Shown here piece by piece: positions 22,981-63,276 of a stretch of DNA of 64,000 nt. Positions within the stretch are counted from its first letter, which is position 1, and the number at the start of each line of letters is the position of its first letter. Location of the stretch: assembly GCF_963678975.1 (NCBI RefSeq), contig NC_089274.1, positions 44,794,075 through 44,858,074 on the forward strand, read 5' to 3'. Position numbers and translations under genes: made by a program. The DNA comes from Dysidea avara (taxonomy: Eukaryota; Porifera; Demospongiae; Dictyoceratida; Dysideidae). The notes beneath the pieces were generated by a model, which saw nothing but the letters and a program-made list of their open reading frames with translations, was not told where the DNA came from and did not search any database.

Positions 22981-23099
22981 GCAAGGGAGTTTAGGGTTGC
23001 TGAGTTTGCTGAGCAGGTTCGCCACACCCTCATTCGTGGAACTTTGCGTAAAACACCGGATACGATAAATCTCTGGTAGCTACTCACCCTTGAGTGTCA

Positions 23100-37898: not shown

Positions 37899-37986
37899 TT
37901 TACCTTTGCTCTATAGAGGAATTTCTAGGAAATCGGAATTTCTTGAACAACCACACTGATTTAATTTTGACTGTTCTGTTTTGTAT

Positions 37987-38155
37987 CACCCGCTTCTCAC
38001 AGTAAATGTCAGGATATAAACTGGGAAATTGTCGAGGAAATTGTTTTTCTTAATGGGTTATAACCTGACCATATTGCAATATATTGCTACCGTATTAATC
38101 CTATGCTTAGCTTATTATAGAAGAAAACTAGTCGGTCTAATCCGGATATCCGAAA
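37987..38155 (+). repeat. Left TIR of giant KDZ element
   Basis: Inverted copy of 63,121-63,267; shared inner blocks include CTTAATGGGTTATAACCTGA and GCAATATATTGCTACCGTAT. Confidence 0.9.
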
Positions 38156-39402
38156 ACCGGGTTTTTTGCCGCTGTTTGCCCAGCTGAGTTGTCGCTTCAT
38201 ACTCACCTATAGCTCTGTTTCAGATATGTATGCCGTCTCTACCAGGTATGTGTACAGTTATACGGTTATACCATAGATAATACACGTGCACACTGCTATT
38301 AAAACACATCTCCAGCTTTAACAATAACGCACGTGTTCCGCATTCAATGCACACTAAAGTAAACAGCTCCTGTGTTAAAGTGCACACTACCATACACCTC
38401 AATGTGTAAAGAGTTGTTTTTTAAGAGGTACAACTGAGAAGAGTGTGCGGTTACTTGAAAATGCGTGCTAAGGTACACCAGTTGGGATGGCACATCCATA
38501 TCAAACTGTTTGTCATACATCAATTTTTCCGTTTCATGTAAATAGCTATAACACTACCTTCTAAACAAACCGCCATAGCTTTCACATGCTTTGTTTAATG
38601 GTAGTGAGACTTGGCTCATCACATTCCGAGAAGAAAGGTGATTTGCCTGGTGTGTAAGCTATTTGTGTAATGCTAAAGCTAGAATGAAGCCTTGAAATGC
38701 AAAATTTTGTATTTAGAACACACGCGAAACACGTTTGGGCATGTTTTTACAACATATCTCTGTAAGCTAACCTGTTTTGCAATTTGTACAGTCGGGATCT
38801 TATTAAGAATCTTTCACTGCGTAGAATGGTACCAAGTTTAGTGAATTTGGTCGAGGTTTACAACTTGTAATTTTGGGTTTTCCAATGGATTATTGTATGG
38901 GGCATGACTTATGTTGTCATTCGACAATGAATAAATGTTGCTATGGTAATGTTATCATACCTGTACAGTTAGCATTCGACAAGGGCTTTCTTGGCTTTCT
39001 TTAAACATATGGATTGCTGTAGAGATTATATGAGTTAAAGGCTGTAAATTTGTGTTTTTGCTGGTAGCATAAAAATACATGTATTTTGTATTGGACAAGC
39101 AATGGCATGGAATGATGAAATTTTTTGATTAGCCTGTTTAACCAAGCTGAGGTTGCTAAAAGAAATCTGGTAATTGCTGCTAGGTAGATATGATAATCAA
39201 TTACTCGATTCTGCACCTTATCAGCTATTACTGGACAAAGAAAAGATGTACCCTAGATAGGAAGCTGGTTGTACTTGTAATACATATAAGTACTGTAAAA
39301 GGGTTAAATGATGGCTACGTATGTGTCAATGATCAAGCAGTTTATGTGAATATTTTTGCAGCTATTATATGGCCCAATCTAATAGATTGAAAATTTGCAT
39401 AA
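38156..39402. other. Left subterminal region of giant element, no gene seen
   Basis: No exon that I can support on either strand. Confidence 0.45.
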
Positions 39403-39640
39403 ATTGACCGGATTTGCGAAAAGGGGTCTTCCACACACATCCAATATACTGACTTTGATGATTCACAACTTCAGATTATAATAAGCTATTAGCTTGAAAT
39501 TTGGACTGTAATGAGAACCAACATAGGTGAATTGATAACAAAACCCTGAGGTTTGTATCTACTTTGAAAATTAAGTTATGGTCTTCCAAAGTATAGAATT
39601 AGATGTGTGTAGAAGACCCCTTTTCGCAAATCCGGTCACG
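39403..39640. mobile_element. MITE with TIR TGACCGGATTTGCGAAAAGG
   Basis: Inverted ends near 39,404-39,440 (GACCGGATTTGCGAAAAGGG) and 39,603-39,639 (complement). About 238 bp, non-coding; inserted inside the giant element. Confidence 0.75.
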
Positions 39641-39968
39641 AATATGTCAGCACCAAGTTACAAATTTACAGTACATGTAACTGTAGTTTTACCTAACATC
39701 TTCCTGACAGTTCCCCTGTCAAACTTTCGTGCTATGTGTAACTGTGGTTGTGATCTCAGGACAAAGGTAGCTCCCTAATTCATACACTGTATGTACTGCG
39801 GTATGTTAAATGCACCTTTCAGGCTTATGAGGTGTATAACAGTAATATAAAATAAGGCAGTCCCATAGTCTTATAGCCATTATTTATTGACTCTTGTCTG
39901 AAGGTATCAAGCAGTTAGTGAGTATGAAATCCTGTAAATTACTGTAATGCTTACCACTAAACTGTACC

Positions 39969-40890
39969 AGGGGTGTAGCCAGCCGGAAGGTGATGGGGTG
40001 ACAGGTATACCCACGAAACGCTCAATGTCGTAATCATTGTATAAAAGGCTAATGACCCAATGATGGGCTAGCCAACATACGGTGTTGAATTAATTACAGT
40101 TAACTAAATCACAACTATGTTCGTACTTATAAAAAGCTATACTGCAGAGTCGAGCTTCATCTCACGTTCCTCACTGTACTCCAACATATTCATCCACAGT
40201 CACATAAAAGCAGAATTAGAATAGCATGTTGATGTGTTATAACTGCTTACATTAGACACACTGAGGCCTGATGTGACTCCTTGCGGTCACGCAGTCGGCT
40301 GATTTTGTCCAACCATTCCAAATCCCAGGTAAACTACTTAACTCAATTCCGACTTTATAATCCCCTCTATGATAGACCTTGCTTCAGAGTCACAGTAGGC
40401 ATAGATAAAATCTCATGCTGCCTCTTCGGCATTTTATACCGGCACGGTGAAACTTCCAGAAAGTCTACAAACATTAACCATGATCGGTGAAAGTTCTTAC
40501 ATTTAACTCTCAATAGGTGCTAACAATTTATCACCCAGATATCAGTGTTTTCTCAAGATTCAATTGTAGAAGGTCACCCGCCTTTGTTCAAAATCTTTGG
40601 AGTGGACCATCACATGGGTAGCTGGTCTAAATATAGAACAACAATCCTAATGTTTTCGTGAATCCCACTCATACTGGAAATGACTGTTGTACATCATGAT
40701 TTCAGACATGTACTGGCGATAACCACCAGCAAGTGCCAGGCTAGCTGATATTGTAAGCAATGGTGATGGGTGAACTTGTAGTTTGGCGGCGCCCGCCCTT
40801 TTTGCATGTTTGAAGGAGGCGGCCACCAGACTAGAATTTCTGATGGGGGGGAGGGGGGCAGATTCCCCCCCTCAACTACACCACTGAGTT
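39969..40890. mobile_element. Possible hAT-like element, ends imperfect
   Basis: Left end CAGGGGTGTAGCCAG and right end CAACTACACCACTGA are imperfect inverted copies of the type seen at 18,927. A matching ACTGTAC flank occurs on both sides but not at equal distance. Interior non-coding. Confidence 0.45.
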
Positions 40891-41289
40891 ACTGTACTAG
40901 CATATTATGCGTGAAGTAGAGCCCCATCCAACTCCATTCTGCCAACATCCTTTTCATACGAGAACTTAGAATGTTAGTATAGGTACATATTACTTCCATA
41001 TTACATACTGTTGTAATAATGGATCAATACATGAAAGATTATAAGCCATCACTGAATGTATATGTATTTAACTAGTGTGCAATAGAACATTTTCCCAAAA
41101 TTGTAATTCTTTAATATACCACTTATACTGTATAAATTTAAATGTGCAGAGATTTTACATGCAGGCAATCACAAATGAAGTACACTTAGCAAAAGTTTTG
41201 TAGATATTATATCAGTTATTCTGTTCAGCGCAAAAAAATACAGTAGCACATGTTTGGTGATGGCACAACCCATTGGTATTTTTGTATGG

Positions 41290-41293
41290 GTAG

Positions 41294-41330
<37 letters not shown>
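41290..41330. repeat. (AT)n microsatellite
   Basis: About 30 bp of uninterrupted AT dinucleotides. Confidence 0.9.
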
Positions 41331-41332
<2 letters not shown>

Positions 41333-41559
41333 CAGTATGGTAGTACTGTATAGTAGGGGTCTCGAAGATGTGGGCGTGGCCCTTGGAAATATATCGGCCA
41401 GAAACCATCCTCTGAAATCCTTCACGGCTACTTGGCACTATTGGTTAGGCTAAATAAAGCTCAAAAGTGCCTTCACATTGATCTAAAATGCTTTCATCAA
41501 GTTGCTACAAAATTTAAAAATATATATTTAACGGAATTTTCTACTGACTGACTGCCTGA

Positions 41560-42010: not shown

Positions 42011-42019
42011 TAAACAAAC

Positions 42020-42313: not shown

Positions 42314-42621
42314 TATATATAAGGGAGAGGGGGGGAGGCTTAGTGATGTCAGTCCTTTTATAAAAGGTGGGCATATTACTTCCACAGTGCATTTTGACTG
42401 TTCATTCAGAGTGCTTGACCACCCTAAGATTATTGCAAACTTAAGGATTGTATATACAAACCATGTTGTTTTCATTTTCACAACATGCGTATTTTTGTCT
42501 ATTATATGGCATCTTTCACTTGATGTTGTATGGTAGTGTACCTTATGACAAACGTTCTAAAATTATATATATTGTGTACTTATACAATTTATGGTTTTAA
42601 ACTGTATGTACTTCAAACAGC

Positions 42622-45600
42622 ATGGCCAGTACCAAACTGGTATGTAAAAAGAGGAAGATCTCTGGATACAACATGTATCATAGGGAAATTTTGAAATCGT
42701 CAGGTAAGACATTCAAAGTGGTCATCATTATAAGATTATATTATTATTTATGTTTAAATTGCTTGAATTTCACATTTACACGTAGTCTAATATTTCATTT
42801 TTTCTTATCTCAAGCATTTCCATGTAAAGCTATACAATTCATAGTGCTGAGGCGTTGTAATAAGTATATGGGTGTATGGGACCAAAGCAATGATGTAAGT
42901 AGAAATTAGAAATGTTTTGCAAATGTACATTTAATATTGTGACTGGATGTGCAATAACCGGGCTTATCGCCCATGACAGGAAGTTTAATTTTTTGCCATA
43001 AACACAAACCTACATGAATACACTATCAAGATTCACTTCCACAATGCTGGCTGCATTTTCCAAGGCCAGTGGAAATCCATACAGACAGTCTGGATTCATA
43101 ATGGAGCTCTGGCCAGCAAAGAGGCAGCTGTGTGTGGCTGTATAGCTCTGTGGTGTTGGTTTAAGACCTGTGCTGTTCCTTGTCCTTCATTTTAGCCAGT
43201 TGTGAGTCCTGTATGGCCCATATCTTGGTCTATTTCACCCTTTTGCCTCTCCTGACATTTTTGTTTCATCAACCACTCGTCCACCACCCACCCATTGCTG
43301 AGCTCACCTGATATATCATGACAGGGACTACCTCAGTAAATAAACTATCTAAAATGGCGGGAAACTTAGTTTTTGGCTACTTGTTTAGTGGATGGTTATA
43401 AAAGTAAGGAATTAGTGTAAAATGTGTGAAATTTGGTACACGTAACTTCATCCATTGGCGAGCTCCAACACTCTAAATAATTAAAACCAGCATTTCTCAA
43501 TACTTGTGTATAGGCGATAAGTCCGGTTTTCGTAGAGCCAGTCACAATTGGCATTTATCTTAACATGCATACAAGGGTATAGCTCATTCATTACTATATT
43601 TGACTGGATTTTGGGAAACCGATCCAAATTGCACATTAAAAGTTTTATCATTAAAAGCTTTGAGATAAATGATTTTAAAGAATTACTGTTCTTAAGACCA
43701 TTCTAACTTGCCAAGGGTAGTGAGTAGTGAGTACACGTATAAAATTTACACTAAAAGTACATCAAATATTAAATTTCAGATAATTTCCGCTTTTCCAGTG
43801 CTTGTAGAGTTTCCCGCCAAGTAAGATAGAAGTTGCATGGATAGGTCGTTATGTCATGGGTGCTTAAAATAGGGATGAATGGTATGAGTGAGCAAGGGAT
43901 AGACTTCAAAATGGTAGTGCGCGACAATTGTACGAGATTACATGGCCATAATGGCTCCTTAGTAGTTGAAATCAAGAAAATACTTTGTCAGCTGTAACAG
44001 CCCAATAACCAGTACATTACTGATTAATCAAGCCAGGTTCTATGCCAGAAATTGCAATTAAGGAGTATGTATAGGCATGAAGATTCATTATATAAGTACT
44101 ATTATATTTAATTGATATGCACTGTGTATATAGAAAGATGAAATCATTCATTTTCTTATTTTCTTACATACAAGCGAACACATATAATTACTGGCAACAT
44201 TTTGTTTGTAGATCCAAGTGTCTGTCTGGGGGACTTAAATAAAATGATTGGTGAGCAGTGGCAAGCTCTAACCCAACAAGAGAGAGAAGAATTCAACCAA
44301 ATTGCAAGTGTAGAGCCAACCAGAGTTGCTACTTTGAAAGATTTTTTGAATCACCTAGCCAAGCTGGTATGTCCCATGCATTCGTCAAGGAGAGCATTGG
44401 TTGAAACTTCCATTCATTAACATGTTAAATCATGAGTATTCCACTGCAGGTGCTACTTGAAGCACTGCCATGTGTATGTACGGAAAAGATGCATACCACA
44501 AGGGAGTGTGGTGAGAGGCTAATGCAGCAAGAGGCAAACTAGCGCTGTATACGACTCAAGAAACCCCCACCCCCGAGTGGTGTATTAATGCAAGTGATCT
44601 TCTAGTTTTATATTTTACTTCCTGGTCATCTTGCTTAATGGAGCATTCATTTTGAGTACCCTAACTGCTTCAAAGTGTTGTTATCAAACTATCTTTGGTT
44701 TTAGTATAATCTTTTTCTAGTCATAGAACAAACTATTTCATACAAAAGTTTATGCACCCTAGAAAAGTAGAAATTTTGTTTTGCAACTTATGTCCACCCA
44801 ATTTTCTTTATAAAATATTGTAATCAATAATCTAAACTGTTAGGCTAAACACTTGAACGAGTGATAAGCAGCACAGATACCAAGTTTTATTAAAATTTTA
44901 AGCATGACCCAAAATTCATTGTTGATTTGACATCAATGAATGAATTCTAAAAGTTTTTTGCATCATAAATACGAATAATAGTCATGTACTGTATACTACA
45001 GAGTAATGCAATCAAAGATACTTTGGTCTGAGATGTTCTTTACTCTGGTGAAGGATAATGAACACTACTGTGGGGGAACTGCAAAAGGGATTTCTTTTCT
45101 AGAAGATCAAGCTCCTTATATACCCTATTCTTTTATTGGATATCTTCACCATCCAGTGGCAACAAGTGGTATGTAATCTTAACTTGTGAAAATGTTTTTA
45201 TGCATGCTTATGCGTACATCAAAAATAAATGGCCGCACAAAAGAACCATTCACTATGTAGACTTATTTTGCAAGAACTTTTAATTGAAAAGGCCATTTCC
45301 GCAATGACTTTGATGTAATATGTTCTACAAAATAGTGTGCGTGGTTCAATAAACTTTTTCTTACTTTAGTTTTCCGGTTTAGTTTTGTGATAAAAAGGTA
45401 AATATTATAGCTTATTATGTACAGCTGTATGCCCAGTAGCAGTCAGTTCAAGTGATCTCCTTTGTCGTAAGTGTGTCTCCATATAAGTTACCCAACAGCA
45501 ATGGATATGAATCCATGTTTGCTTACAAAGTGTGTTGCACCTACTAATCAATTGGTGTGGCTTAATGAAGGACAGTACCACGCAATCTTGATAGGTAGGT

Positions 45601-48600
45601 GTGGCTCAAAGAAAGCTAGGATGTGAAAAGACTAGACTATGATGCATTTATGCACTTTCATGTTATGAACTGATGTTTCATATGTGATCTAATCAGGGTC
45701 AGACCAAGATATTTTCTAAACTAGGTCAAACCTGACAAAATTTGATTTGACTGACCCGGTCCTGATTTCAATGCTGGTGTGCATATATTTGTTTCATATA
45801 ATAATGTGTAAAAATTTTGTACATGTGAAATTATTTACTTACATGTACTGTAGGTGCTCAAATCCTTGCCGATACGGATATAAATGTCAAGAGGAAACAA
45901 GTTGAAGAAGTGTTCAACAAGCTATATGGTATGAATATATGCCACCTACTCAGCTGTAAAAAAATAAAACACCATTCATCAGAAATTTTCCAATTTTATT
46001 TTCATAATAACACATTATAATTAAAGTGCACATACCAATTGTACCTGAGAGAATATTTTTTTGGGTCAGTTACATAACTTATGGTTATGCACAATGTAGG
46101 TTTAAAAATACATTTTTTTCTAGAATCACTATTGAAAGCTTCATATATATATATTTATAGGGGAAGCAAATAGAGATGGCAGTAAAAAGCTACCATACTC
46201 TAAAATATCCAGCTTAGGAATAACTGTCACTGGGTTACCAGATGGTGTTTCATTGAAGCATCCCTCTTCCTATGGCCGGAAGCAACTACAGTCTATTTTA
46301 GACTGTAAGGAAAGACTGATAATAAACTGTAAGGTTTTAAAATTAAACATGTTGTATGAATGACATATATTTTAGTTTGTAGTCCAGTGCATGGTGACAG
46401 ACAGTCAAGTAGAGGTTAGTCGTGCTGTGTTGGGAACTACATATTTATCACGTTTATTGGTTCAGTGAATACTACTGCTGTCAGTGGAGCAGTTGGTAAC
46501 AGAACTGAGGATGATCAGCCAAGAGGTTAATCGTGCTGTGTTGGAAACTACATATTTATCACGTGTATTGGTGCAGTGAATACTACTGTCGGTGGAGCAG
46601 TTGGTAACAGAACTGAAGATGATCGGCCAAGAGGTTAGTCATGCTGTGTTGGGAACTACATATTTATCACATGTATTGATGCAGTGAATACTACTGTCAG
46701 TGGAGCAGTTGGTAACAGAACTGAGAATGATCAGCCAAGAGGTTAGTCATGCTGTGTTGGGAACTACATATTTATCACATGTATTGGTGCAGTGAATACT
46801 ACTGTCAGTGGAGCAGTTGGTAACAGAACTGGGAATGGTTGGCCAAGAGGTTAGTTGTGCTGTTTTGGAAACTGTATATTTATCTCGTGTATTGATGTAG
46901 TGAATACTACTGTCAGTGGAGCAGTTGGTAACAGAACTGAGGATGGTCGGCCAAGAGGTTAGTTGTGCTGTGTTGGGAACTACATATTTATCTCATGTAT
47001 TGGTGCTTATTAATAGGGTTTTGAAGTGGGCGAATATTGGCAAATAGGGGAGCGATAAAGGCGATGATAGTAAATAGAGTGGGAGATTTGGGGTTAGTGA
47101 TAGGGATGTTTTTGTTATTGAAAGAGTATGGGACATTGAATTATGATGTATTAAGTTGTTTGGTAGAGAAGGATGTGGTAGTGTTGGAAGTAGTAGGATC
47201 GTGTTTATTTTGGGGTGCGGTAGGGAAATCAGCGCAACTAGGATTGCATACTTGATTGCCGGACGCAATGGAGGGTCCAACTCCGGTTTCAGCGTTAATT
47301 CATGCAGCAACGATGGTGACCGCTAAATTGATAATACAAGACTCGAAAGAAACAAACAAGCAAAAAAGAACTTCCCACTAGAACATGCATCCCATGAGCC
47401 CCAGTTGTTAGAAAGAAAGTTGAGCCATATACAGAATCCGATATAGTAAATAGCACCACATAATACTCAATTCCTTGCAACCCAGTGAATAACAAACCCA
47501 ATCCGACAGTATATCCTAAAGCCTTTAGTGCTAACATTCGATCTCCCTTTGTAATACTAAAATGCGCCCAAGTCACCATAGCCCCAGAACTTAATAAAAT
47601 TGCCGTATTCAATAAAGGAATGGCCTTAAAATTCAAAGGATCAATCCCCGTAGGTGGTCAAACACCTCCAACTTCGGTGGAGCAGTTGGTAACAGAACTG
47701 GGGATGGTCGGCCAAGAGGTTAGTTGTGCTTTGTTGGGAACTATATATTTATCTCGTGTATTGATGCAGTGAATACTACTGACGGTCGGCCAAGAGGTTA
47801 GTTGTGCTGTGTTGGGAACTACATATTTATCTCATGTATTGGTGCAGTGAATACTACTGTCGGTGGAGCAGTTGGTAACAGAACTGGGGATGATCAGCCA
47901 AGAGGTTAGTTGTGCTGTGTTGGGAACTACATATTTATCACATGTATTGGTGCAGTGAACATGTTTTTATATTCAGCCATCATATTATAGGGTAATCTAC
48001 CAACCATAGCAACCATTGATAAGCAACAGAATTTTTAATGTTACACCAAACAATTGTTACCTAGCTACCCTGGTTATGGCACCAAAGCAAACTGTTGGTA
48101 GGAAACCTTTTTGTTGCTGTGGTATTGAGCTTCAATCTGGTCCCACCATTATTCAGACTTGAACATGTGCGTTCAACAGAACCATTTCACACAAGCACAG
48201 ATATTTGCTGAATCCTAAGATTCTAAAAGCCAACTCTTGACATATTGCATCAAGGGGATACGTATACGGGCCATTAAATTATATTGTTATAATATAAGTC
48301 ATAGATCATTTTGCACATCTATAGTTCTGTTGTAGAGTTTATGTATAATTTATTAGTTTCCATTGATTAACTTATGTGTATAAATGTTTTTGAATGTGTT
48401 GGTTGCAGGAACTGTGCAGTCTGAGAGTGATGAAATTGTTGTGCTGTTGTCACCTACAAGACAACCAGTTGGTCTTGGACAGGTTATACAAAGCCAGGAT
48501 ATACATGGTCACACTATTTCACCAGCCCACATAAAAGTACAAATTGATTACATTATTCCAGGAATTTGTCCGCCAGTTCCTATGCCCTTTGATGATGGTG

Positions 48601-48662
48601 AGCTTTGTTCGGGGCAGTTTGTTGCTTGGCCAAGGAGTCTAACTACTAGTGCAACATTCTAA
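42622..48662 (+). CDS. HMG-box protein with GTF2I-like repeat, mini-exon array and DUF8039-like tail
   Basis: Exons read by phase: 42,622-42,703; 44,212-44,366; 44,450-44,510; 45,004-45,168; 45,854-45,928; 46,161-46,304; 46,376-46,414; mini-exons 46,466-46,525, 46,577-46,633, 46,685-46,741, 46,793-46,849, 46,901-46,957, 47,770-47,796, 47,848-47,904; last 48,409-48,662. The sum is 1347 nt, 448 codons plus stop, with every junction GT..AG and in frame. Residues ~10-60 are an HMG box ([18 protein letters not shown], then [18 protein letters not shown]). About 155-220 match the GTF2I repeat ([38 protein letters not shown]). A 19-residue repeat ([19 protein letters not shown]) follows, then a tail ([30 protein letters not shown]) resembling DUF8039-type transposon modules. 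Likely a nuclear DNA-binding partner of the convergent transposase. The numt now lies in an intron. Confidence 0.75.
43510..43990 (-). repeat. Dispersed repeat in intron 1, copy of 17,450-17,900
   Basis: Complementary to the repeat at 17,450: TGCTTGTAGAGTTTCCCGCC, CTTGCCAAGG and CCGATCCAAATTGCACATTA are shared. Confidence 0.55.
47007..47323 (+). pseudogene. nad5: Numt: mitochondrial ND5 fragment
   Basis: Reads in one frame as the central part of NADH dehydrogenase subunit 5: [36 protein letters not shown], then TGA read as Trp, then [24 protein letters not shown] encode the conserved Arg of NRVGD and ANRG. It uses the mitochondrial code, has no start or stop of its own, and is part of a nuclear repeat array, so it is a dead transfer. 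It joins the COX3 piece tail to tail near 47,321-47,324. Confidence 0.93.
47324..47675 (-). pseudogene. cox3: Numt: mitochondrial COX3 fragment
   Basis: Read on the minus strand from 47,675: EVGGV, TGA (Trp), [72 protein letters not shown]. This is the mid-to-late part of cytochrome c oxidase subunit 3, again requiring TGA as Trp. It is opposite in orientation to the ND5 piece, so the insert is a chimera of two mitochondrial fragments. Confidence 0.93.
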
Positions 48663-50950
48663 GCTAGACAACTTTCATACACCAGTTTCTGTTATGTAAC
48701 TCTGTAGCTATTGGAAGTATAATCCTGTGCACTGTAACAGTACTGATGTTGTTTCTTTATCATTAAAAGTATCTTTAAATTATATTATATTCTTGCATAT
48801 AAAATGAGACTACATACATTTGATTGTTATGCTCGAAATAGTTATAATTGTACCTCATGCAACTTTTCTTGGTACAGAGGAACCTCAGTTGCCTTCATGC
48901 CAACATTTCTTGACCTTATTAAGCAGGTAGCTACCAGTATATTAGACTGGTTACTTCATACACAACTCATTTAGGGATTAATACAATGGCCAGTGTAGAC
49001 AGGTGACCTGATTAGGCTCGTTAAACTGTATTGAGATGGCAAAGCATGCAGTACATATAAATGGCTGAGACATTCCTGGTGAGGTGTTTAGAGTCAACAG
49101 ATTAGGAGAAATATTTTGCACTTCAGTAAATACAGGAAAACACATACTGAGAGTACCACCTCAATTTTCAATGCTGAAACTTTTGGTTTGAAGGTAGAAA
49201 CACTGCTGATTTCTGAGATTTGTGATATTGAAATCTAAAGGTCTGCCAGATCTTTGTGCATATGGCTAGTGTCTTAAGAACAGAAGTGTTACTACAAAGA
49301 ATATAGCCATGCCAGGATTTGTATGCAACAATGGCAAGTAATTCTTGTCAGAAATACTCTTTCAATGAACAAACGGTCTAATAATATTGTGTTTGTGCAT
49401 CACATTATTTTTATGAGTTTGGTATGTTATAAAGATTTGAGATGGAAATGCATGCAACAAAAATCCTATTATGAGTGATCTAAATGTCTATCGTTATCAA
49501 TCATTGTTGCTTTTTAAGTGACAATATGATCCTATTAAACAACATAGCTGCACTTAAAAGTTATTTAAGCCATCGACTATGCAAATTCCATACAAAGTGT
49601 GTATTGTATCTGTTGTGCTCTGTACACCACAGATGTTTACAGCTAATAAACCTCTTACTATGGATATACAGGTTTCTCAAAGGTGATTCTGGCTGTAATA
49701 AGGTTATGGTTACACTGTAAGTCTTAGCCATAACCTTTGTACAAAAAGATGAGCTGTTGTACCTATTACATTTTATGCAGTTGAATGACCTCAGTATCAT
49801 GTTTAAGTTTGGCTTGTGCTTATTGCACTATAGACGAGTACGTACTCTGATCTTTTTGTTCTCTTCGATTTGCACAAATCACTACTTCCTGTACATGTAT
49901 TATCCATAATTTTAAAGAATTTTATCCACAGCCAGTGAATCTCTTACCATTGCATGCACGATGCCTGTATGTAGGTAATACATAATAATTTTATGCTACT
50001 TTTAATGATAAGGCTTTCTAAATAGGTGCCAAACACACCAAAAACATGAGACACACTGCAACTTAACAGTATAGTGGATTTATAAGAATCAATAGAATAT
50101 TGAAAAAACTTAAATGTGCTATGTCAATTATGTAGAAGCCGGTAGTACATAGTATAAGGTGAAAATGCAATAGATTCTTATTGGTCTATTACAAAAGTGT
50201 CTATGTATGTCTAAATATGCTTATAGGCTACTGTGTAAGCTAGAGTACTGTAAAGATATTGACCACTAACACAATAGTTGACTGCTCTATTAGAGTATTT
50301 GTTACAATATTAACCAGTAAAAGTGGGAGGACTATGGTCCCTCAGCCTCCTCCATTTCTCTACTAATGAACATTACCAATCTAAATGGTTTGAACACCTG
50401 AAAATGTGTTTAGGTCTAAGGATTTAGGAGATACAGGTAAACGAGTACATTTAATTTAAAGGCGTGGTCATTTTCACATATTTCACAGTGGATTAAAGCT
50501 TCGGCACATATCTCATGTTGTCCCTTGGGGTCAATTACCCTAGAACAATTGAGAAATATATACTCTCCTAAATTAAGTGCATACAAAACTTTGTCAGATC
50601 CTACACTAATGTGACAAGATCTGTAAAAGGGGTTTATATGTACTTTGCAAAATCTGGTGAAGGAGGTATACACCAGCTGGAAATTTGATCTATAATACCC
50701 CTAGCATAACACCATAGCTTTGTGCATTACGGTGCTCACATATGAGGAGCTGTGATCAGTCAAATCAAGCTGGAAAAGTTACACAACCTATTTTCACAGA
50801 TGCTGTTAAATATTTTGAAATATTGTGACATGTCATTGCGTGGATCTTCGACTTGTCTTATGTACATTAAAAGCAAAGTGTTTTTTGGTTCGGCTGCAAG
50901 ACAGTTCTTTCTTAGACAATCTTAGTAGATTTTCTGCATATTCTTTTAAA
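48663..50950. other. Region between convergent gene ends
   Basis: Between the TAA of the plus gene and the TGA of the minus gene. It contains a worn Tigger-like piece (about 48,880-49,035) and one CTCTATTAGAG motif at 50,284. No credible further gene. Confidence 0.5.
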
Positions 50951-51504
50951 TCATTTCTTCCCATGAATGAGCCAACAGGTCTTGAAGTCATCACTATCTG
51001 TCTCATCATCCCATGAGACTGATAATGCCTCGTCATTAAAATATGATGAAATACCATCATTATACAGAACTTCATCATCGTCACTAAGTTCAGGTGATGT
51101 ACTACCTACAATAACAATACGTAGTTCAGTTTTGACAATGCATGTATACATTCAGTACTATGATTTGAGCCATTATACAAATAAAAGTCAAATGGAAATG
51201 TAACAGTTTGGGCTAAACTGGATAACGAACAACAGCTTACAAAACTTTATCCTTTGTCCATCTATAATCAACGGAGGTTTATTATGCAAGAACTTTCTTC
51301 ATGCTTAAGCAGTATTCATTAATTAAAGTTTACAACATAATAAGATATTGGCAGTTTAGTAGTTTACTACACATATGTACACATACATAGTACAAAATAT
51401 ACTACATATATGCCATATTGGCAGTTTATCTGTACATGTATTATCGATATATATATATATATCATTGGCAAAATACTGATATTAGCAGTTTAGTGGGAAA
51501 TTAC

Positions 51505-52623
51505 CATCTTCATCATTAATCCTTGCCATAGAAGAAACGAGCAGTTCTAAAGCAAAGAAAATGATAAATCTAGCACAACTTTTACAGCCTCTACTTGACC
51601 CATCCTCAGTTGTTCTGTTACCAACTGCTCCACTGACAGTAATATTCACTGCACCAATACATGAGATAAATATGTAGTTCCCAACACAGCACAACTAACC
51701 TCTTGGCCGACCATCCTCAGTTCTGTTACCAACTACTCCACCGACAGTAGTATTCACTGCACCAATACATGAGATAAATATGTAGTTCCCAACACAGCAC
51801 AACTAACCTCTTGGCCGACCATCCCCAGTTCTGTTACCAACTGCTCCACCAACAGTAGTATTCACTGCACCAATACATGAGATAAATATGTAGTTCCCAA
51901 CACAGCACAACTAACCACTTGGCCGACCATCCCCAGTTCTGTTACCAACTGCTCCACCAACAGTAGTATTCACTGCATCAATACACGAGATAAATATGTA
52001 GTTCCCAACACAGCACAACTAACCTCTTGGCTGACCATCCCCAGTTCTGTTACCAACTGCTCCACCAACAGTAGTATTCACTGCATCAATACACGAGATA
52101 AATATGTAGTTCCCAACACAGCACAACTAACCTCTTGGCCGACCATCCCCAGTTCTGTTACCAACTGCTCCACCGACAGTAGTATTCACTGCACCAATAC
52201 ATGAGATAAATATTTAGTTCCCAACACAGCACAACTAACCACTTGGCCGACCATCCCCAGTTCTGTTACCAACTGCTCCACCAACAGTAGTATTCACTGC
52301 ATCAATACACGAGATAAATATGTTGTTCCCAACACAGCATAACTAACCTCTTGGCTGACCATCCCCAGTTCTGTTACCAACTGCTCCACCAACAGTAGTG
52401 TTCACTGCATCAATACACGAGATAAATATGTAGTTCCCAACACAGCACAACTAACCTCTTGGCTGACCATCCCCAGTTCTGTTACCAACTGCTCCACCAA
52501 CAGTAGTGTTCACTGCATCAATACACGAGATAAATATGTAGTTCCCAACACAGCACAACTAACCTCTTGGCTGAACATCCTCAGTTCTGTTACCAACTGC
52601 TCCACTGACACTTGGGTCTTCAT
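51505..52623 (-). repeat. 108-bp mini-exon array in the transposase gene
   Basis: Ten copies (GTTACCAACTGCTCC spaced ~108 bp on plus) of the repeat seen at 46,376. The array is inverted on the plus strand but again in sense with its gene. The first exon 52,623-52,564 (60 nt, phase 1) starts [13 protein letters not shown]. The last, 51,648-51,505, extends the repeat into GSSRGCKSCARFI and donates in phase 1 to 51,105. Confidence 0.88.
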
Positions 52624-54910
52624 CTGTAAGTGAGACAACTTTCCAACACACACATGTACATACACAACACACATGCATACACAGTACTACACAAACCAAA
52701 GCAACTGATCAGTTTCATTTGAATGGAAATGGAAACATGAGCTGGAATTATCTGTAGATAAAAAATGCAAATAATTTTACTCTAAAATATCAATGTAAGA
52801 GACCTGTATAACTGGTCAGGGGAAAATGATTTTCCGTACTGGCCTATGATGTGCCCATGGAAGGTGGTATAACCTCTGTAAAGCACATTATTTTATAAGT
52901 TCTGATGGAGAAACAAGTACCTGGGACTATGTTTCTGAATAAAGATAGCAAATCTGTTAATTTGGTACTGAAAATCAGTAACTTTCTTGATATCAAGCAG
53001 TAGCACCCAGATAATTTCTCTACATCTTTTTCTTGTTCATGTAATTGTAAATGGATTTCTTCTTGGCTTCTCTTTAAAGATGCTATCTGCCTCTTATAAT
53101 ATTCCAAGCAATTTCTCATTTCATCTTTTAGTAAAGCTATCTCTTCCAGTGACCTTTTTGCAGTCCTAAATTTCTGTACGGCTTCACGTTTCACCTCTAT
53201 TGGGATCGATGTAGCAATTGATGCAAGGCTAACTGTATAGCTATTCCAATGGATATTAATTGCAGCTTCCCAAATCATGTGATCCTCCACCGGTAAACCT
53301 TCACTAAAAGATCTCAACATCTTCTTAATTTGGTTATTGCCTGCACTAACTCGCTTACTTAAACGAGAAGCAATCGCAAGTCCATCTACAGCAAAAATAA
53401 ATGATATTGTACATAGCTTCAATGGGACACTATGATATGTGGATAGAATTGAAGGACACAAATCTGTTATATGCATACAAATAAATAATCTTAGCAAAGT
53501 AAGGCGACCTATAGCTAGGAATGAAAGCATTAAACTGTACCAGCATATTTTGCCTTTAAGGTAAGTAAAAACCATCTTTCTCTTGCTGCTTGCTCGAGTT
53601 TTAATAAAAGACACATTCTGTGCTCAGATGCAACCAAAGCTTTAGCTTCCCGATACTAAGTAGATGATGTAGACCATCTTTGACGGACACCATTTGCTTG
53701 TTCTAAACTTTTAAGCTTGTCCTCACACTGTGTAAGGCACTCTAAAAGTTGAGAAGGCAGTACAAACAATGGAGAACTTGGTTCAACCGTACTGATTGAA
53801 GTAATAGAAGACCTTTACAAAAGTAGGACACATATTGTAAGAACTAGAGATGAAAGAGCATACGTACTTAATTTCTTCGTGCATATCAATTAGCTTGACA
53901 TACTTAGCTTGCCATCTCTCAGATAAATTCATAGCTAGAGCACATGCAAGTAATCTGCACATACATGCAGTATCTCACAGATATACCACTTGAATCTTGT
54001 AAAAGTTGAGATCTCTCCTCCTCTTCCCACCTTTCAACATCAGCCATGGAAAACTGAACTGTGATTTAAAAGTCGGCAAACAAAAATTATATTGAATGCT
54101 TAATTGTGAACTTTATACTACACGTATCTAGTACCTGGTGACATAAGCATCAAATCATTTAAATCTTTGTTAGATTCTTCTTTCAAACTTTGTGCACGAT
54201 GGAACTTCTTACAAATCAACTTACCTGGTAATTTTTAGCATTACAGTGCACATCAAACAAAACATACATAACTATCATACCGATATTGTCTATTCCCTTC
54301 TGACCATAATAGAGGATAGCATCACTAAGAACATCAATTCTATGAGATGGTCCCATTTCTTTGGTCATCCGACTAAATGGTCTTAAAAAAGACCACATCC
54401 TTTCCATGCCCTCACCATCACTAAGTCCAAAGCTTTCAATAATACAAGGGCTAAATTGGATCTAGATATCAGATATTTGTACACAGTTGCTCCCTTCAAC
54501 TTGACAGAATTTATATTCATCCAAATGGAAGGGGTGACACCATAAGGTTTTGAGGGTACTTCCCAAAAACTTACTCATGAAAATATAGCTAGTTTACTTC
54601 AAACAAAAGGCAACAGCACCAGACAAAATACACTGAAAATTTGTAAGCAAAGTACAAAATACAACACATATAAAAGTATATAAAATATAATTTAATAATC
54701 ATATGGCACCAAAAATATAAGTCCTAACAGCACGTCTAGTTTGAAAAAGGAAAATGAAACATAGTCAATGGGATCTTATTTCAGATAAATAGTGCATTTC
54801 AATTTCAAGGGAAACGAAATGAAGTAAGGGCGGTCTCTTTAGCAGAACAGAACAAAATGAGAACTGTCTGGAAGATAAAGAGCAAAGGTCATTAAATTTA
54901 ACAGCAATCA

Positions 54911-55999
54911 TATTACAGGTTTTTGCAATTGAATTCGGCGACTTTGCAATTGAATTCGTCCCGTTTGCAATTGAATTCGTCGGTTTTGCAATTGAATTCG
55001 TCGCTTTTGCAATTGAATTAGTCGCTTTTGCAGTTAAATTCGTCCAAAACAAGAATGGCAGCTGGAACAAACATGAAAACATGATGTAGCAGCTGCTACA
55101 AGAACTTGTTCAAGTACAACAGTAGTAAACAACTCTTTATAAGGCAATAATTCTTCCTCTACAGCCTCTCCAACAACATTCCAAACTCTACTGCGCCATT
55201 CGCGATGGGTGTGGTCACTCGCGAGCAAGCTAATTAACTTGTCAGACAGCTATCAACTTCGCGTACTACCAGCTTCAATTACCTTCTAGTGTCTCAAGTG
55301 TAACTCTCCAAGGCATAAATAGTTCATCTCTTAATGAACGGGTTGGTTTCTTGGAGCCGTTTTGTTTATGACGAATTGTAATGCAAACGCGACGAATTCT
55401 ATTGCAAAACCGACTAATTCAACTGCAAAAGCGACGAATTCAATTGCAAAACCGACGAATTCAATTGCAAAACCGACGAATTCAATTGCTAATACCATAC
55501 CTGTTTCACTGCCCGTACAAAAGTCTCAATAGTAGCAGTGAAATTTATCCCGTATTTCACTGACAGCAGTGAAAAAGTTGTAATTGCAATTTCATTGGCT
55601 AGAATTTATGTTAACAATGTAGCGCCAATTAGTGTCGAAGCGTGTTTAGTACATAGTGACAAATTGCGTACATAGCAAAGCTAATGCAGCATATGCAGCG
55701 AGTATGGTATTAACTGGGAATAGCATGGGTAGCAGTGAAATTTGGGATAAATACCACTCTTGTTGTATTGGAAATGGTAAATTTCACTCGGCTTCGCCTC
55801 GTGAAATTTATCCCCATTTCCAATACAACACTCGTGATATTTATCCCAAATTTCACTGCTACCCATGCTATTACTAGTACAAACGGGACGAATTCAATTG
55901 CAATACCGACGAATTCAATTGCAATACCGACGAATTCAATTGCAAACGGGACGAATTCAATTGCAAAGGCGACGAATTCAATTGCAAAAACCTGTAATA
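54911..55999. mobile_element. 1.09-kb TIR element with 18-bp subterminal repeats
   Basis: TIRs TATTACAGGTTTTTGCAATT and its complement. Next to each end are runs of an 18-bp unit, GACGAATTCAATTGCAAA in one orientation: six or so inverted at 54,917-55,045, five at 55,381-55,490 and five at 55,883-55,990. The repeats read as 6-residue peptides but are not a gene. Sits in the transposase intron 56,769-54,451. Confidence 0.8.
55725..55868. repeat. Long hairpin inside the 54,911 element
   Basis: CATGGGTAGCAGTGAAATTT pairs with AAATTTCACTGCTACCCATG; the stem runs ~65 bp with a small loop at about 55,793-55,800. A shorter related GCAGTGAAATTTATCCC piece lies at about 55,534-55,572. Confidence 0.85.
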
Positions 56000-58900
56000 A
56001 TGCGTATAAAAGCCTCACTAGTCACAATGCTACTTTAATAATTTACGATACTTGGTCCAAGCTAAATTACCAGTATTTCTGGTCAACTTTAAATAGCGAA
56101 CTGAAGTGTACCATAATAGGTACAGTAACACATGTATGTAGCTACAAGTAGACAGTTGTTAACGATATTGAGGGGCAAGACTCTGTAAGCTATTAGCGAT
56201 GTTTTAAAATCATGTTATTAGTATCTCAATAACGAGAAATATGAGCATATGTGGTTTCCTACATCTTCATTTTTCACTCTGCTCAGGGGTTTCTGCAGCT
56301 CTGTGCATTCTGTACAATTTCCTTCTAACATTCCTACACTGTCTAACATCATCAGTAGTGTCTCTATCGTTGTCAGCCATGGTTCATATCTTCCATTAAC
56401 AGAAACTGGTAGCAACACGAGGTACAACAACACAAGGTTTTATACCAATGCACGTGCTAAGTCAGGAAGTCACGGTGGCATTTACGATGACAACAAATAA
56501 AAAAGTCCAGTAATCTATCCCGTTTAACTTCATGTACTGAGCAATAACTGACAGTACAAACAAGGAAGTCCAGTAATCTACACCATTAATTTCATTCCAT
56601 TTTATGTATTATCAAAGCTGCATACAGCAAGTATGCCAAACCAACCAGTACAATTGAGCCCTGGGGTGTGCAAAGACTACATGTGGGAGTGAAAAAGTAG
56701 GCTCAACTATGGGGTGAACTAGACAGAGGAATACATAATGGTAGTTTACAAAAGCACACAAATCATCACCTGGCAACTGAGTTTATGACCAAAGCAATGA
56801 AAAATAGGAATTGCTAGATGAAACACTGACAATAAGTCATCACAAGAGTTTGCCTGCATCATTGACTTAGAATACAAATATTGTAAATGAATTAATCCAG
56901 CAAACCTGAAGGTGCTTTTGTAGTGTACAAGACACATCGTACAACAGTTTAATGTCATGGCTTGGAAACAATTGTTGCAAACAGTGCATCATGTACACTG
57001 CATAACTAATCCTGTTAGTGTATATTTAATACAAATGAATATCATTCAAATTCTACACCACATTACTACCTTTCTCCGTGAAATAGATTAAAGAATCTCA
57101 ATGGAACTTCATGACGGCAAATACTTCCCATAACAGCAGTTTCATCTAATGCTTTGTATCGTTTGCTAGATCGCAACTCATTTCCAGCTAAAAAGTTATT
57201 ACACAAACCCTACAAACCAAGTAAATGCATATAGCATGATTCGAGAGTCATTCACATACTTGTGAACTTGAGTTGCGTGATTGACTATGAGATGACACAA
57301 AAGCATTCACCTCATCCTGAGGTTCAAATACCATTTTTCCACTAAGTGGACCCTGAACACTTTTGCCAGCTGACTTTTTCCGACAAAGGCCAAATATGGC
57401 ATCTATTGACACTGTCACTGCTCCACTTTCCTACATGTCCAACCAAAATTAAAGAATAAGCGAAAGGTTAAATTTTATTTCATATGTACATAATTCTACA
57501 ATAATGCACTACACAATCCACACAGATATTTGCAAATGGCATTTGTACCGTAGAACAAGCTGGGCATGAGTGATCTAATGGAGTTACATGTATTCCCTCT
57601 AAAGTTTGGAGGCGTCTCCGGAAATGCCTGCAGATCAATACAATACATAATCTTGGATTCTTACAATAATGCATTGCTTATTAAGGTAATGCATACGACC
57701 ATTAACAATTTTCTTTCCCACTGCCCAAAAGAACTCATTTGTAAACAACAAGATATGTGTCCTATTGCTATGCTTATAAACACTGTACTGTGTAACTACA
57801 AGAATTTCTTCTTTCGATTGCAATCAGCAAAAGTGTACATAATTTTTTTTTTACTTTGTAAGTTTGTCTCTACATATTTTTCTTTCTCAGTTTGTAGGAG
57901 CTACTTTGGTGAAGGAGTAATAAGCAGCCAGTTAATTCTTCAGCCTCCGTGTCATATGATCAGAAACCAGTATATGATTTAACATTCAGGAGCTATCCAT
58001 CACCAATCAGGGAATAGAAAATAATATTTGCACTTGCCAATTAGCATGCCCCATTCATTTAGTGGAATGTACCACCAAATACAGCTAAGCATGGCTATGT
58101 TCTCTCCGATTATATAATTTACTGAATGGTAGCCAAATAGCTGCTGCTACATAATGCCGTACCTACGTTTTTCTTCAGAAATCATATATAGCTATAACTG
58201 AATTAAATTAGACTTTTGAATAATGTAAGATTATAAATTTCATCTAACACTTCCTCCAACAATTTAAAAGTGGAAAAACAGTATGCAGAATTTATTAATG
58301 TACCTGTACTCTTCAAATGAATCAATCAATACCGGATACAGATTGCATGGCATCTAATAAATTATAAATTACATAGCTTAATCTACTATGTAAACATAAT
58401 AACACAGCACACTAATTTATGTCCATGTATAAAGTAATTAAGGTAACACTATCTGTGCTGGACTTGCCTAACAGATATGTGGAATTGTCTAACTACAACG
58501 CCTTTGATGCGGATAGTCCTAAATGCCCCAAATTGTGGTATTGTGTTTAGTGGAGCATGCAAAATACTCATATTCTACAGTGGTATACATTCCTTTTAGT
58601 GCAGAAGGCAAACTGGCTCACCTTTTATTTCCAGTGCACAGAGATGCAATAATTACAATTACCTCTTGAGTACAGGGCAGAAAGAAAGCTTACAGACACT
58701 GTTTAAGATGCTCCCCATCCAACTATTTTTTAAAAGCTAGTAGTGTTACATTGCAGGTGCTAGAATTCCGCATACACATTCCTTATCACAACAGATGCAT
58801 TGGCAGAATATGTTGAGAAGTGTACTAATAATGCTACATAACTACTTTAGTCTGATATAATAAGAATTTTATTCGACCCTGTACATGTATCACTACTACA

Positions 58901-59973
58901 TATACACACTGTACTTACATAGATCCCTGAAAAAATGTGAGTTAAAAATAATTGCACATTAGTGTAGTAGTGCTCTTTTATACCTATATGAATAAATTTC
59001 ACATACTTTAATCAGTTTCTTTGTCACCAAATAGGACCATGCTTGTGTAAAGTCCTGTACTGCTACATGGCACTCAAGCAACAGTGCTTCAAGGAGATCC
59101 ATAAATTCAAATGTAAAGGCTACTTGGGGATAGACAGGAGTTCCAGGCCAGTAATTAAATCCAATCAATTTGAGTGCATCACACTTACAGGAGCAAAATG
59201 GAAAATTCAAAACACGTGGAGATCCTGTATGAAGAAATACTTGAGGTTTTTGTGTGAGCAATCATCTTTTGCTGAATTCTTGCCACAAAATTTCTAAAGT
59301 AAGCCTGACATTAACATAACAAAATTGTGACCTTATTTTGGAAAACCTATACCTTTTGACACAATGGTAAACATTTTTGTAATACTTTAAAATGGTAATA
59401 CCTCACCAGCCTTGGTAACTATGCAAGTGAAATTTTCCCTGAAGATGGAGGCTTTAATGCCCTTTCAGAGCATCTACAGTATAAGGAGCTCCCTGTAGGA
59501 GTTCTTGTCATTTTAAATAGGTTTTTTCATGAGTAGCCATTGCTGTATCACAAGTCCTCACAAATGCACTTTGATATGCTCACAGAAACCCGTCTCTAGA
59601 AAGCAAACCCGACAAGTTTTAAGATAAAGTTAGTGTAAAATTGTTAGCTGCCAGACAGTGTAGCCATCTCGTTCTGGTGTTATCTCAAAACTTGTTTATA
59701 TGCCAAAAAGGTAGGTTTTCCAAAATCAGGTGTTTGATTTGGAAAATGTAGTATTGCAAAGATCTGCCCAAAATTTGCTAAGTAACATTGAATTGCAATA
59801 TGGGATACATGCCAGTATTTTAAATAAAAGTTCCATTATTACATATGTGCTACTTAGCTGTTTATTGGTTATATAAATAGCATACTACATACCTTCAACA
59901 CTAAAACATACAATGCTTCTCCTTGTTATATTCTCACAGCATGGCTTTGGATCAAGCACAATGCCATCAGGCA

Positions 59974-60310
59974 CACTGTGAAAAAGGTGGGATATAAGAT
60001 GGTATTTCCAGTGGCTTATTGAATACAAATAAGCCTTAATATAAATCCTGTATTATACTCATGTTATACTTTAGTATAATCCATACTATACTATTACATA
60101 TATGGTTTCAGTTTATTTACCACATTACCTGAAATAGCTTATATCTAGTATAATGTCCACGCTATACCATCACATATATGGTTTCAGTATGTTTAACACA
60201 GTAACTAAAGCCTTACATGTGATTGTTAGTATAATACAGATTATATCAAGCTTTTTTGTATTCAATAAGCCACTGGAAATACCATCTTATATCCCTCATT
60301 TTTCACAGTG
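59974..60310. mobile_element. CACTA-type MITE inside transposase exon 2, possibly spliced as an intron
   Basis: TIRs begin CACTGTGAAAAA on both ends (about 60 bp nearly perfect), with the 3-bp duplication gca (59,971-59,973; 60,311-60,313), as expected for CACTA/EnSpm. Precise removal restores the exon in frame (PLELPDG). Alternatively, on the minus strand the element supplies CACT|GTGAAA as donor and TTTTTCACAG|TG as acceptor. Splicing would leave 9 extra nt and keep the frame. Confidence 0.85.
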
Positions 60311-60899
60311 GCAGTTCAAGTGGCTGAAAATAACCATCCTATTGGTACATTTATATTATAAAGGTAAATTACTAAGCATGTTTCTATATCTACCTCCCAA
60401 ACTTCCACAAAATGGTGAAACAATGAATGTTGGTGCATATCAATAGCACATTGCTTACAGTAAATCATAAGAGGTCCGCACTGATCACATTTCACTATGC
60501 CTCTAGATTTATCACATATAGTGCAATCCAATAGTGGTTCACTCATATTCATAATAACTCCATTTAAGGCAACACTTTGGACGATTTGCCATTTTTCAGC
60601 TGCTTTTTGCTTCCTCTTTGTGTGAGCTGTTTGCTGCTCTGTATCTGGTTGATCATCATAACATGTGCCTTCATTATTTTCATCTAGTATTTGGTCAGAT
60701 GAATCATCAGTGTTAAAGTGACACTCTTCAACAAGTGGAGGATCGCTGAAACTTCTAACAGGTGCTTTAATGTGCTTTATTTTACATCTCTTAGCAACAC
60801 TAACAAGTGTTAGAGGAATACTTTTCCTCTTTATAATAGTCTTCCTTGGATTCATTGCTCATACATACATGTATCTAGCTAGATCAACTATATAAATCC

Positions 60900-61823: not shown

Positions 61824-62281
61824 CAAGAGTTCATAATATATATACTGAGGAGAGTATTCTACTCCCATATACCCCTGTAGAAGGGTGTATCATAAAGTGA
61901 TAATGCAATACTTCCAAGTTCTTCCAATTCTTTTTGTAAAACTAATGATGTCATTAATCAAACATAATATCGATTGTACGTGTGCCTAACAATGTCGCTA
62001 GCAACCGAACTAACTCTACTTCCCAGCACTTCTCACTGGACTACAAGCACAGGTTCATGGTGTAGACAAACAAAATGGACGTTTCTTGAAAGTTCATTCG
62101 CGAATACAGCAGGTTCTGAGCTTCACTTGTGTAGTAAGGCATTGATTCGTGTGCTTTTATGGCTTCTTGTATGTCACAAACCACAACATCTTGTCGTTAC
62201 AGCTTCACTTTACGATACACCCTTCTACAGGGGTATATGGGAGTAGGATACTCTCCTCAGTATATATATTATGAACTCTTG
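61824..62281. mobile_element. MITE, 458 bp, ~75-bp TIRs, 7-bp TSD
   Basis: TIRs CAAGAGTTCATAATATATAT and complement, nearly perfect for 75 bp (through CCCCTGTAGAAGGGTGTATC). Flanked by gtaccat on both sides (61,817-61,823; 62,282-62,288). Interior non-coding. Confidence 0.85.
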
Positions 62282-62288
62282 GTACCAT

Positions 62289-62677
62289 TAATTTGTGATT
62301 GTTCACAACTACTACTAACAGCTAACAGTCACATGTGACCACATCTCATCACTTTATGATGAAGCATTAAGCCTTTGTTGCACAACTAGAAACCAATTTT
62401 AGTCTTGTTTTTTGTGAACTTGTGTTTGTCTTTTGAATAACAATGAGTAGCTATTAGTTACCAAGAAATACTGACTTAATTTTCACTTCGAATATTTGCC
62501 TCACACTGTTCCACCCATTGAGCTATTTCTGGTATACTCTTTCTTCCACTCTCTTCAGAGCAAAGAGACTGAGAGGAGACTGTAGCTTTCAGTGTAGTGT
62601 AGTGTTGTACTTGGTTCCACAGTTCCATGTCAAAGTCAGTGAGTCACGAGTCACGAACCAAATACAATTATAGCTAA
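62289..62677. other. Right subterminal region of giant element, no gene seen
   Basis: No exon recognised. Confidence 0.4.
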
Positions 62678-62973
62678 TGCACCTATCAATGTTATCCCCC
62701 TCAGGGCGCAGTGGGGAAAATGGTGGGGATTTGACTTTTGGAAAAATCAAATTCTCCACCCATGGGGTAACAACTGGTGGTCAAACCTCCATGCAGTATG
62801 GCTGTAGCTAATACATTTTAGGAAACAGGTTAATTCTTATAGCTTGCAAGCTAAAATTTCGAATGGTCAAATGCCCCACTAGTGGGACAAAATTTCTGAT
62901 CAAATCGGGCCAAAATCCCCCACTAGCTAATCCCCTGGGAGGGGGGTAGTGGGGCTTAACATTGATAGATGCA
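62678..62973. mobile_element. Harbinger-like MITE, 296 bp
   Basis: TIRs TGCACCTATCAATGTTA and TAACATTGATAGATGCA with the 3-bp duplication taa on both sides (62,675-62,677; 62,974-62,976). C- and G-rich interior (CCCCCTCAGGGCG, CCCCTGGGAGGGG). Confidence 0.75.
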
Positions 62974-63120
62974 TAAGCTCTTCATTATTATACGTAGCTA
63001 TGTGTAGAGCTGTTTAAATGTTTACAATAAACTTACTTGCCAGGTGGTGACTGCTTTACACGGGTCGGTGGTTCACTCGGACAGGACCAATGTGGGCGAT
63101 GATACGTGCACGGATACCTC

Positions 63121-63267
63121 AGGGACTCGACCGACTAGTTTGCTCTTATAATAAGCTAAATATAGGATTAATACGGTAGCAATATATTGCAATATGGTCA
63201 GGTTATAACCCATTAAGAAAAACAATTTCCCAGTTTATATCCTGACATTTACTGCGAGAAGCGGGTG
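63121..63267 (-). repeat. Right TIR of giant KDZ element
   Basis: Complement matches 37,987-38,155; the terminus is GAGAAGCGGGTG, followed by tttgtat. Confidence 0.9.
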
Positions 63268-63276
63268 TTTGTATTT

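Follow-up and report, generated by a model that had tools for sequence, protein, structure and literature searches.

A KDZ-type DNA transposon of the sponge Dysidea avara with a predicted HMG/GTF2I partner gene and putative twin tandem-exon arrays

The 64,000-nucleotide stretch of the Dysidea avara genome analysed here (the window, C3:44794075-44858074; 550.8 Mb of the genome were searched) contains, between its positions 37987 and 63267, two genes enclosed by inverted ends. In this genome, 27 matches to Wnt (best 177.1 bits) agree with an animal host. The locus raises the question of whether both genes belong to one mobile element and, if they do, how their two proteins would work together. 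From sequence comparison, we read the block as a KDZ-superfamily DNA transposon that would encode a transposase and a DNA-binding partner. The left end (37987-38143) aligns with the right end read inwards (63267-63123) with 137 identities in 157 columns, one 12-bp gap and an E-value of 6e-46, and both terminal inverted repeats (TIRs) start with CACCCGCTTCTC, on the left from 37987 and on the right from 63267. The termini are CACCC..GGGTG, i.e. CA..TG, and the 7-bp target-site duplication (TSD) TTTGTAT lies directly outside both ends. The inverted ends of about 150 bp and the 7-bp direct repeat noted in a preliminary description of this DNA are thus both confirmed. Without its three nested insertions, the element has a core of ~23.2 kb.

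The putative transposase gene is predicted on the minus strand, from 60855 to about 50850. Exon blocks came from a comparison of the window and a diverged C12 relative, and splice sites were placed by frame and by a generic splice score on the copy at C5. Spliced in silico up to its array of tandem exons, the C5 gene yields 842 amino acids. In these exons, Pfam detects the KDZ domain with 139.6 bits (cut-off 26.6, profile positions 4-212 of 217) and, upstream of it, the CxC1 cysteine cluster with 41.1 bits (cut-off 26.9). The motifs SIDAIFG, LYDVSC and DGEGMERMW all occur in the predicted protein and may contain its catalytic residues (D, D and E). The transposase of the window copy is predicted to be broken because of an insertion in exon 2, a stop codon in exon 14 (53656-53658) and a deletion at 50987/50988, by which ~480-580 bp were lost, including part of the 3' exons, that are kept in four other copies. 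In the C5 copy the exon 14 stop is missing and the frame is open over exons 1-15.

The partner gene is predicted on the plus strand, from 42622 to about 48662. After splicing it exhibits a full HMG box (HMG_box_2 31.9 bits, cut-off 22.4; HMG_box 31.4 bits, cut-off 25.4), the second half alone giving 23.0 bits (below the cut-off) and 22.4 bits (at the cut-off). Additionally, a GTF2I repeat was found, with 62.0 bits against a cut-off of 27 (profile positions 2-69 of 75, spliced in silico), and it matches ten solved repeats of the TFII-I family with E-values from 1e-8 to 7.5e-5. This repeat is known chiefly from vertebrate TFII-I transcription factors. The partner exons are kept at 48-58% amino acid identity in the C12 relative, and seven of them are 98.7-100% identical between the window and C5. 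For the last exon, AlphaFold with four sequences produced a beta-rich model with a mean confidence (pLDDT) of 79.7, compared to 38.1 for the exon alone. The leading PDB matches of this model include SH3-like and PWWP-like barrels, but no match has E <0.001 (best 0.086), and Pfam gave nothing over cut-off for this domain, which may resemble a domain of plant transposons. Two convergent, intron-rich genes, one for a KDZ transposase with a CxC cluster and the other HMG/GTF2I-like, had been proposed in the preliminary description, and the predicted genes agree with it on each of these points.

Searches with the left and the right end returned at least 16 and at least 20 matches, respectively. TIR homologues elsewhere do enclose the genes: both of them in a 28.7-kb copy on C5 (1712712-1741396) and in two members of a cluster on C14, b2 (12852858-12883773) and b3 (12888631-12915277), and the transposase with a damaged partner in the 21.4-kb copy C14a (1570181-1591602). 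The latter is without window positions 42597-45830, which hold the HMG exons, and the stretch around its GTF2I exon is inverted. A third cluster member, b1 (12835492-12848294), carries an internal deletion, only the left part of the element is present at C15:13747052, and fragments of the same family, hereafter family 1, were also found at C4:41.55 Mb and C2:54.02 Mb. The cluster as a whole (C14:12835492-12918914) comprises the three copies and further single ends, in inverted arrangement and with common flanks, as if by segmental duplication. Substitutions relative to the window copy amount to 0.76% for C5, 1.05% for C15, 1.47% for b1, 1.73% for b2, 1.89% for b3 and 1.94% for C14a; because the copies diverge so little, the element appears to have been active recently. 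The flanks give the TSDs GTACTGC at C5 and GTTTACA at C14a, so that two further readable copies have the target duplications of their own that the preliminary description had proposed to look for.

Two other explanations of these data concern the unity of the element. The copies could have been made by segmental duplication and not by transposition, and the C14 cluster is where this applies: in b1, b2 and b3, three of the six two-ended loci, the flanks show no matching TSD, which weighs against transposition there, b1 and b3 have both 25-base flanks in common, and the right flank of b2 is nearly identical to theirs. Because of the absent TSDs and the flanks common to b1 and b3, we regard these three as at least partly segmental copies. 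For the family as a whole the explanation is very improbable, as the flanks of the window copy, C5 and C14a differ and each of these copies has its own perfect 7-bp duplication. The partner might be a host gene trapped between the ends in family 1 only, outside the transposition system. Genome-wide, the KDZ profile gave 39 matches and the GTF2I profile 19 (16 over cut-off), of which 6 lie in family 1 copies and 13 elsewhere (10 over cut-off). Five of these 13, all over cut-off, have a KDZ match 8-33 kb away, and all five pairs are convergent (C14:8.28, C7:31.88, C4:42.93, C12:11.57 and C10:20.30 Mb). Random placement would produce this with a chance of ~0.5% per locus and 5e-9 for five of 13 if the loci are taken as independent, a figure to be read with the caution that C12 and C7 are one family and that transposons cluster; the count used 36 of the 39 KDZ positions, three second-exon matches of already listed genes being omitted. 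Other queries added two convergent pairs, at C15:2.36/2.37 Mb and at C14:9.72 Mb, where GTF2I is below cut-off. TIR-related sequence (77-78%) was found near three family 2 transposases (C12, C7 and C3:27.2 Mb), in the expected orientation at C7 and C3 and not at C12. For the other eight of the 13 outside GTF2I matches, the surrounding 40 kb contain no KDZ match, which favours a trapped host gene and counts against a partner tied to the transposase. Such a gene would nevertheless have to account for convergent pairs at five other loci, of at least the C12/C7, C10, C4 and C14 types, and for partner exons conserved between families, and we consider it improbable. Because GTF2I matches outside family 1 recur in convergence with KDZ matches, the partner gene is best assigned to the element, in which it is enclosed in C5, b2 and b3; the preliminary description had preferred an element-encoded factor to a host gene for the same protein. 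One GTF2I match was present per locus, and among the best candidates scored no multi-repeat TFII-I gene was detected. The GTF2I loci over cut-off without KDZ within 40 kb (C15:266567, C14:9377229, C5:19978711, C4:6037 and C6:19595088) may represent decayed elements, or else host genes that descend from partners; at the first two, a match to the last domain of the partner lies 2-3.5 kb from GTF2I.

Each gene contains, ahead of its last exons, an array of 108-bp repeats, at 46411-47962 in the partner and at 51594-52605 in the transposase. The two arrays are mutually inverted and about 91-92% alike, and each unit, read in the sense of its gene, has a 57-nt open exon set between an acceptor and a donor. 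In family 1 (83 units from six loci), both splice signals follow a strict pattern in 65 units, 64 of which are in frame and open; the 18 dropped units comprise 12 that have GT with a variant neighbour base, 5 that are last in their array and have GC for GT, and 1 without GT. The array exons are of phase 1, as are, judged by eye, the predicted exon ends that flank the array in both genes. Family 2 (C12 and C7) has 105/111-bp units in both genes, also of phase 1, and its C12 arrays are flanked by the same exons as those of family 1. Its open units number 17/18 in the transposase and 8/9 in the partner at C12, and 5/5 and 8/9, respectively, at C7. A sensitive DNA comparison detected no similarity between family 1 and family 2 units. 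In family 3 (C10), the transposase has 149-bp units, 3/3 of them open. We infer that the arrays of both genes are spliced and translated, and both proteins would probably carry matching repeat tails. In families 1 and 2 the predicted array peptide is the same, with hardly any difference, in the two genes of a family, and it is another one in each family. A coding reading of the 108-bp arrays on the strand first seen open was rejected, since the splice signals in sense fit both genes and the antisense strand gave no score.

Several results weigh against coding arrays and favour plain intronic minisatellites, which would be alike between the genes through inverted duplication and conversion only. 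The family 1 array exons show no synonymous excess, with values of 0.065, 0.088 and 0.058 at the three codon positions and 0.074 in the intron. Shuffling gives modest results for any single family: of 400 trials each, 18 (family 1), 10 (family 2) and 55 (family 3) attain the splice score of the real units. With 57 of 400, an unrelated 75-bp satellite from C12 performs about as well as family 3, and the top-scoring exon of family 3 in this test differs from the one called open. The twin layout itself is challenged by family 3, where an array was detected in the transposase but none in the partner, and by C14:8.27 Mb, where 10 kb of sequence showed no such array. Minisatellites would, however, have to occur in two families, with unrelated units, at the same place and in the same sense of both genes; acceptor, donor, phase 1 and open frame fit the neighbouring exons, the exon lengths differ almost exclusively by multiples of three, and nothing scores in antisense. 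We hold the minisatellite explanation to be unlikely, though it deserves to be kept in mind. If the arrays are coding, the shared tail may still be a neutral by-product of inverted-repeat exchange with no role in pairing. Near-complete homogenisation is possible without selection, and the undetected partner array of family 3 points the same way, but the twin layout persists in two families despite wholly replaced sequence; this neutral origin is a serious contender that we rank somewhat below an even prospect. The reading that we prefer, and regard as probable, is a two-gene KDZ system in which the transposase and the HMG/GTF2I partner have matching array tails for co-assembly. The transposase would cut at the TIRs and, with a stagger of 7 bp, join the element to target DNA. 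The partner would bind and bend DNA of the element or of chromatin and may help in transposition to unite ends ~25 kb apart, the matching tails would let the two proteins co-assemble by direct contact, and exchange between the inverted arrays would homogenise the tails of each family, which diverge between families.

The exchange between arrays can be followed in the unit sequences. In family 1, the mean number of differences per 108 bases is 9.1 within the partner, 9.5 within the transposase and 10.0 between the genes, unit pairs differing at 40 or more of the 108 bases being omitted. The small between-gene excess is detectable, being reached in 2 of 500 permutations of 77 units (6 of the 83 units omitted). 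Over a 63-nt stretch of 40 family 2 units, the values are 4.0 within the partner, 3.2 within the transposase and 3.7 between the genes. Because the unit sequence has been replaced between families, yet the two genes stay alike, the arrays show concerted evolution of the two genes. A swap of last exons by inversion between the arrays is not claimed, the middle being unflipped in the five readable loci (C5, C14a, b2, b3 and C12). As an extension of the two-gene model, each KDZ family might have a private pairing code made of exchange-matched array tails, and the GTF2I repeat of the partner might be the source of that in TFII-I-type transcription factors; we consider this combined proposal speculative and rather doubtful. 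If it were true, the proteins of one family would assemble mainly with each other. To our knowledge, Nuwa and the other Harbinger-type systems have no shared repeat tails. A pair of separate genes in which one repeated exon is kept the same could show how giant-transposon proteins find each other, and the twin arrays could show inverted repeats driving the concerted evolution of two proteins. The presence of a GTF2I repeat in the partner of an animal DNA transposon, in several diverged families, makes a transposon origin of this domain testable.

In its TSD length and terminal bases, the element is nearest to Kyakuja, and on these two traits we name it "KDZ, Kyakuja-like", its TIRs being a point of difference. 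According to the accessible parts of PMC12730594, fungal Kyakuja elements have 7-bp TSDs, CA..TG ends and no TIRs, and Zisupton elements have 8-bp TSDs. Three different perfect 7-bp TSDs (window, C5 and C14a) and CA..TG termini were found here, with a KDZ transposase and an accessory gene as in fungal Kyakuja. The fungal TET+ families differ by a TET/JBP dioxygenase in place of the HMG/GTF2I partner and by the lack of TIRs, which are ~150 bp long here, a lack that may not define the group. Zisupton shares with the element the KDZ transposase, the multi-exon gene and the TIRs (PMC9297572, PMC12730594, as far as the accessible parts go), but its 8-bp TSD contrasts with 7 bp in all three readable copies. 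Nuwa and other Harbinger-type elements also combine a transposase with a separate DNA-binding protein, of the Myb/SANT kind (PMC12730594, same parts), but the transposase is another one, the TSD has 3 bp and the partner domain is different. TFII-I and GTF2IRD1 have the GTF2I repeat in common with the partner, which differs in having one repeat per locus, together with an HMG box and within a transposon.

The preliminary description had called a spliced two-gene element of this size with such a partner unusual. This stands for the partner, and the shared exon arrays, on which that description is silent, are unusual too; size and splicing are not unusual, since KDZ elements of 30.3 kb (Ectocarpus) and 31.7 kb (Chlamydomonas) have been published for algae (PMC12477816), as has multi-exon Zisupton for fish and nematodes (PMC9297572). 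The giant algal elements resemble the present one in size, nested insertions, broken transposase copies and extra genes, accessory genes in KDZ elements being already in print, and the accessible parts of PMC12477816 describe no HMG/GTF2I partner and no twin exon arrays. In the open-licence literature, we found no report of GTF2I together with KDZ and, among the papers listed on Zisupton/KDZ, none of a KDZ partner of the HMG/GTF2I kind; for a GTF2I-like repeat with a transposon only the hAT sequence in GTF2IRD2 was found, and for GTF2I, transposon and sponge together nothing on the topic. Within the literature searched, both the HMG/GTF2I partner and the twin tandem-exon arrays are new, in a transposon class that is already known.

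Table 1. Coordinates of the element, its predicted exons and its insertions in the window.
Feature	Position	Strand	Basis or remark
Left target-site duplication TTTGTAT	37980..37986		adjoins left end
Left terminal inverted repeat	37987..38143	+	137/157 identities to right end; homologues end other copies
Partner exon X1, start codon and beginning of HMG box	42622..42703	+	predicted; HMG match after splicing
Partner exon X2, remaining HMG box	44212..44366	+	HMG_box_2 31.9, HMG_box 31.4 bits after splicing
Partner exon X3, provisional 3' end	44450..44523	+	predicted
Partner exon X4, provisional 5' end	45013..45168	+	58% identity to C12 relative over 43 amino acids
Partner exon X5, beginning of GTF2I repeat	45854..45928	+	predicted; GTF2I match after splicing
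Partner exon X6, remaining GTF2I repeat	46161..46330	+	GTF2I 62.0 bits after splicing
Partner tandem exon array, 108-bp units (57-nt phase-1 exon and 51-nt intron)	46411..47962	+	split by mitochondrial insertion
Nested insertion, mitochondrial	47007..47670		window copy only; splits partner array
Partner last exon, conserved C-terminal beta-rich domain	48407..48662	+	49% identity to C12, 85 columns
Transposase last coding stretch	50836..50987	-	conserved in C12 relative; C12 comparison
Transposase 3' exon after array, cut by deletion 50987/50988	50988..51103	-	predicted
Transposase tandem exon array, inverted relative to partner array	51594..52605	-	repeat analysis
Transposase exon T15	52921..53385	-	predicted; C12 comparison
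Transposase exon T14, stop at 53656-53658 in window copy	53541..53791	-	predicted
Transposase exons T10-T13, DGEGMERMW motif	53868..54461	-	KDZ 44.9 bits, this part alone
Nested insertion with 21-bp repeats	54916..55994		window copy only
Transposase exons T5-T9, KDZ core	56770..57627	-	C12 comparison; KDZ match after splicing
Transposase exon T4	58304..58353	-	predicted; C12 comparison
Transposase exon T3, CxC1 cysteine cluster	59007..59224	-	CxC1 43.1 bits
Transposase exon T2, insertion near its 5' end	59893..59973	-	predicted
Nested insertion inside predicted exon T2	59974..60309		window copy only
Transposase exon T1, start codon, cysteine-rich N-terminus	60394..60855	-	predicted; C12 comparison
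Right terminal inverted repeat	63123..63267	-	alignment to left end; homologues elsewhere in genome
Right target-site duplication TTTGTAT	63268..63274		adjoins right end

The three nested insertions are missing in the other copies that align at these places. The mitochondrial one, missing in all five other copies aligning there, contains COX3 on the minus strand (147.8 bits) and, oppositely oriented on the plus strand, an ND5-like stretch (32.1 bits with PF00361). The insertion at 54916-55994 contains a 21-bp unit around GCAATTGAATTCG, which is repeated in three short arrays and occurs in both orientations.

Outside the element, its left end lies just upstream of a minus-strand transporter-like frame (37530-37986; MFS_1 16.4 bits, below cut-off), and the element may have inserted at a tandem transporter gene's promoter. 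A similar frame lies at 12293-13216, where PTR2 scores 16.9 bits (below cut-off), and two more, at 21631-23096 and 36794-37910, were recognised by eye. A 31-bp satellite, CTCTCTACAGGGTGATTTGTTTGTAGCTGAA, occupies 2814-5612 with ~91 copies and 8827-9561 with ~24 copies.

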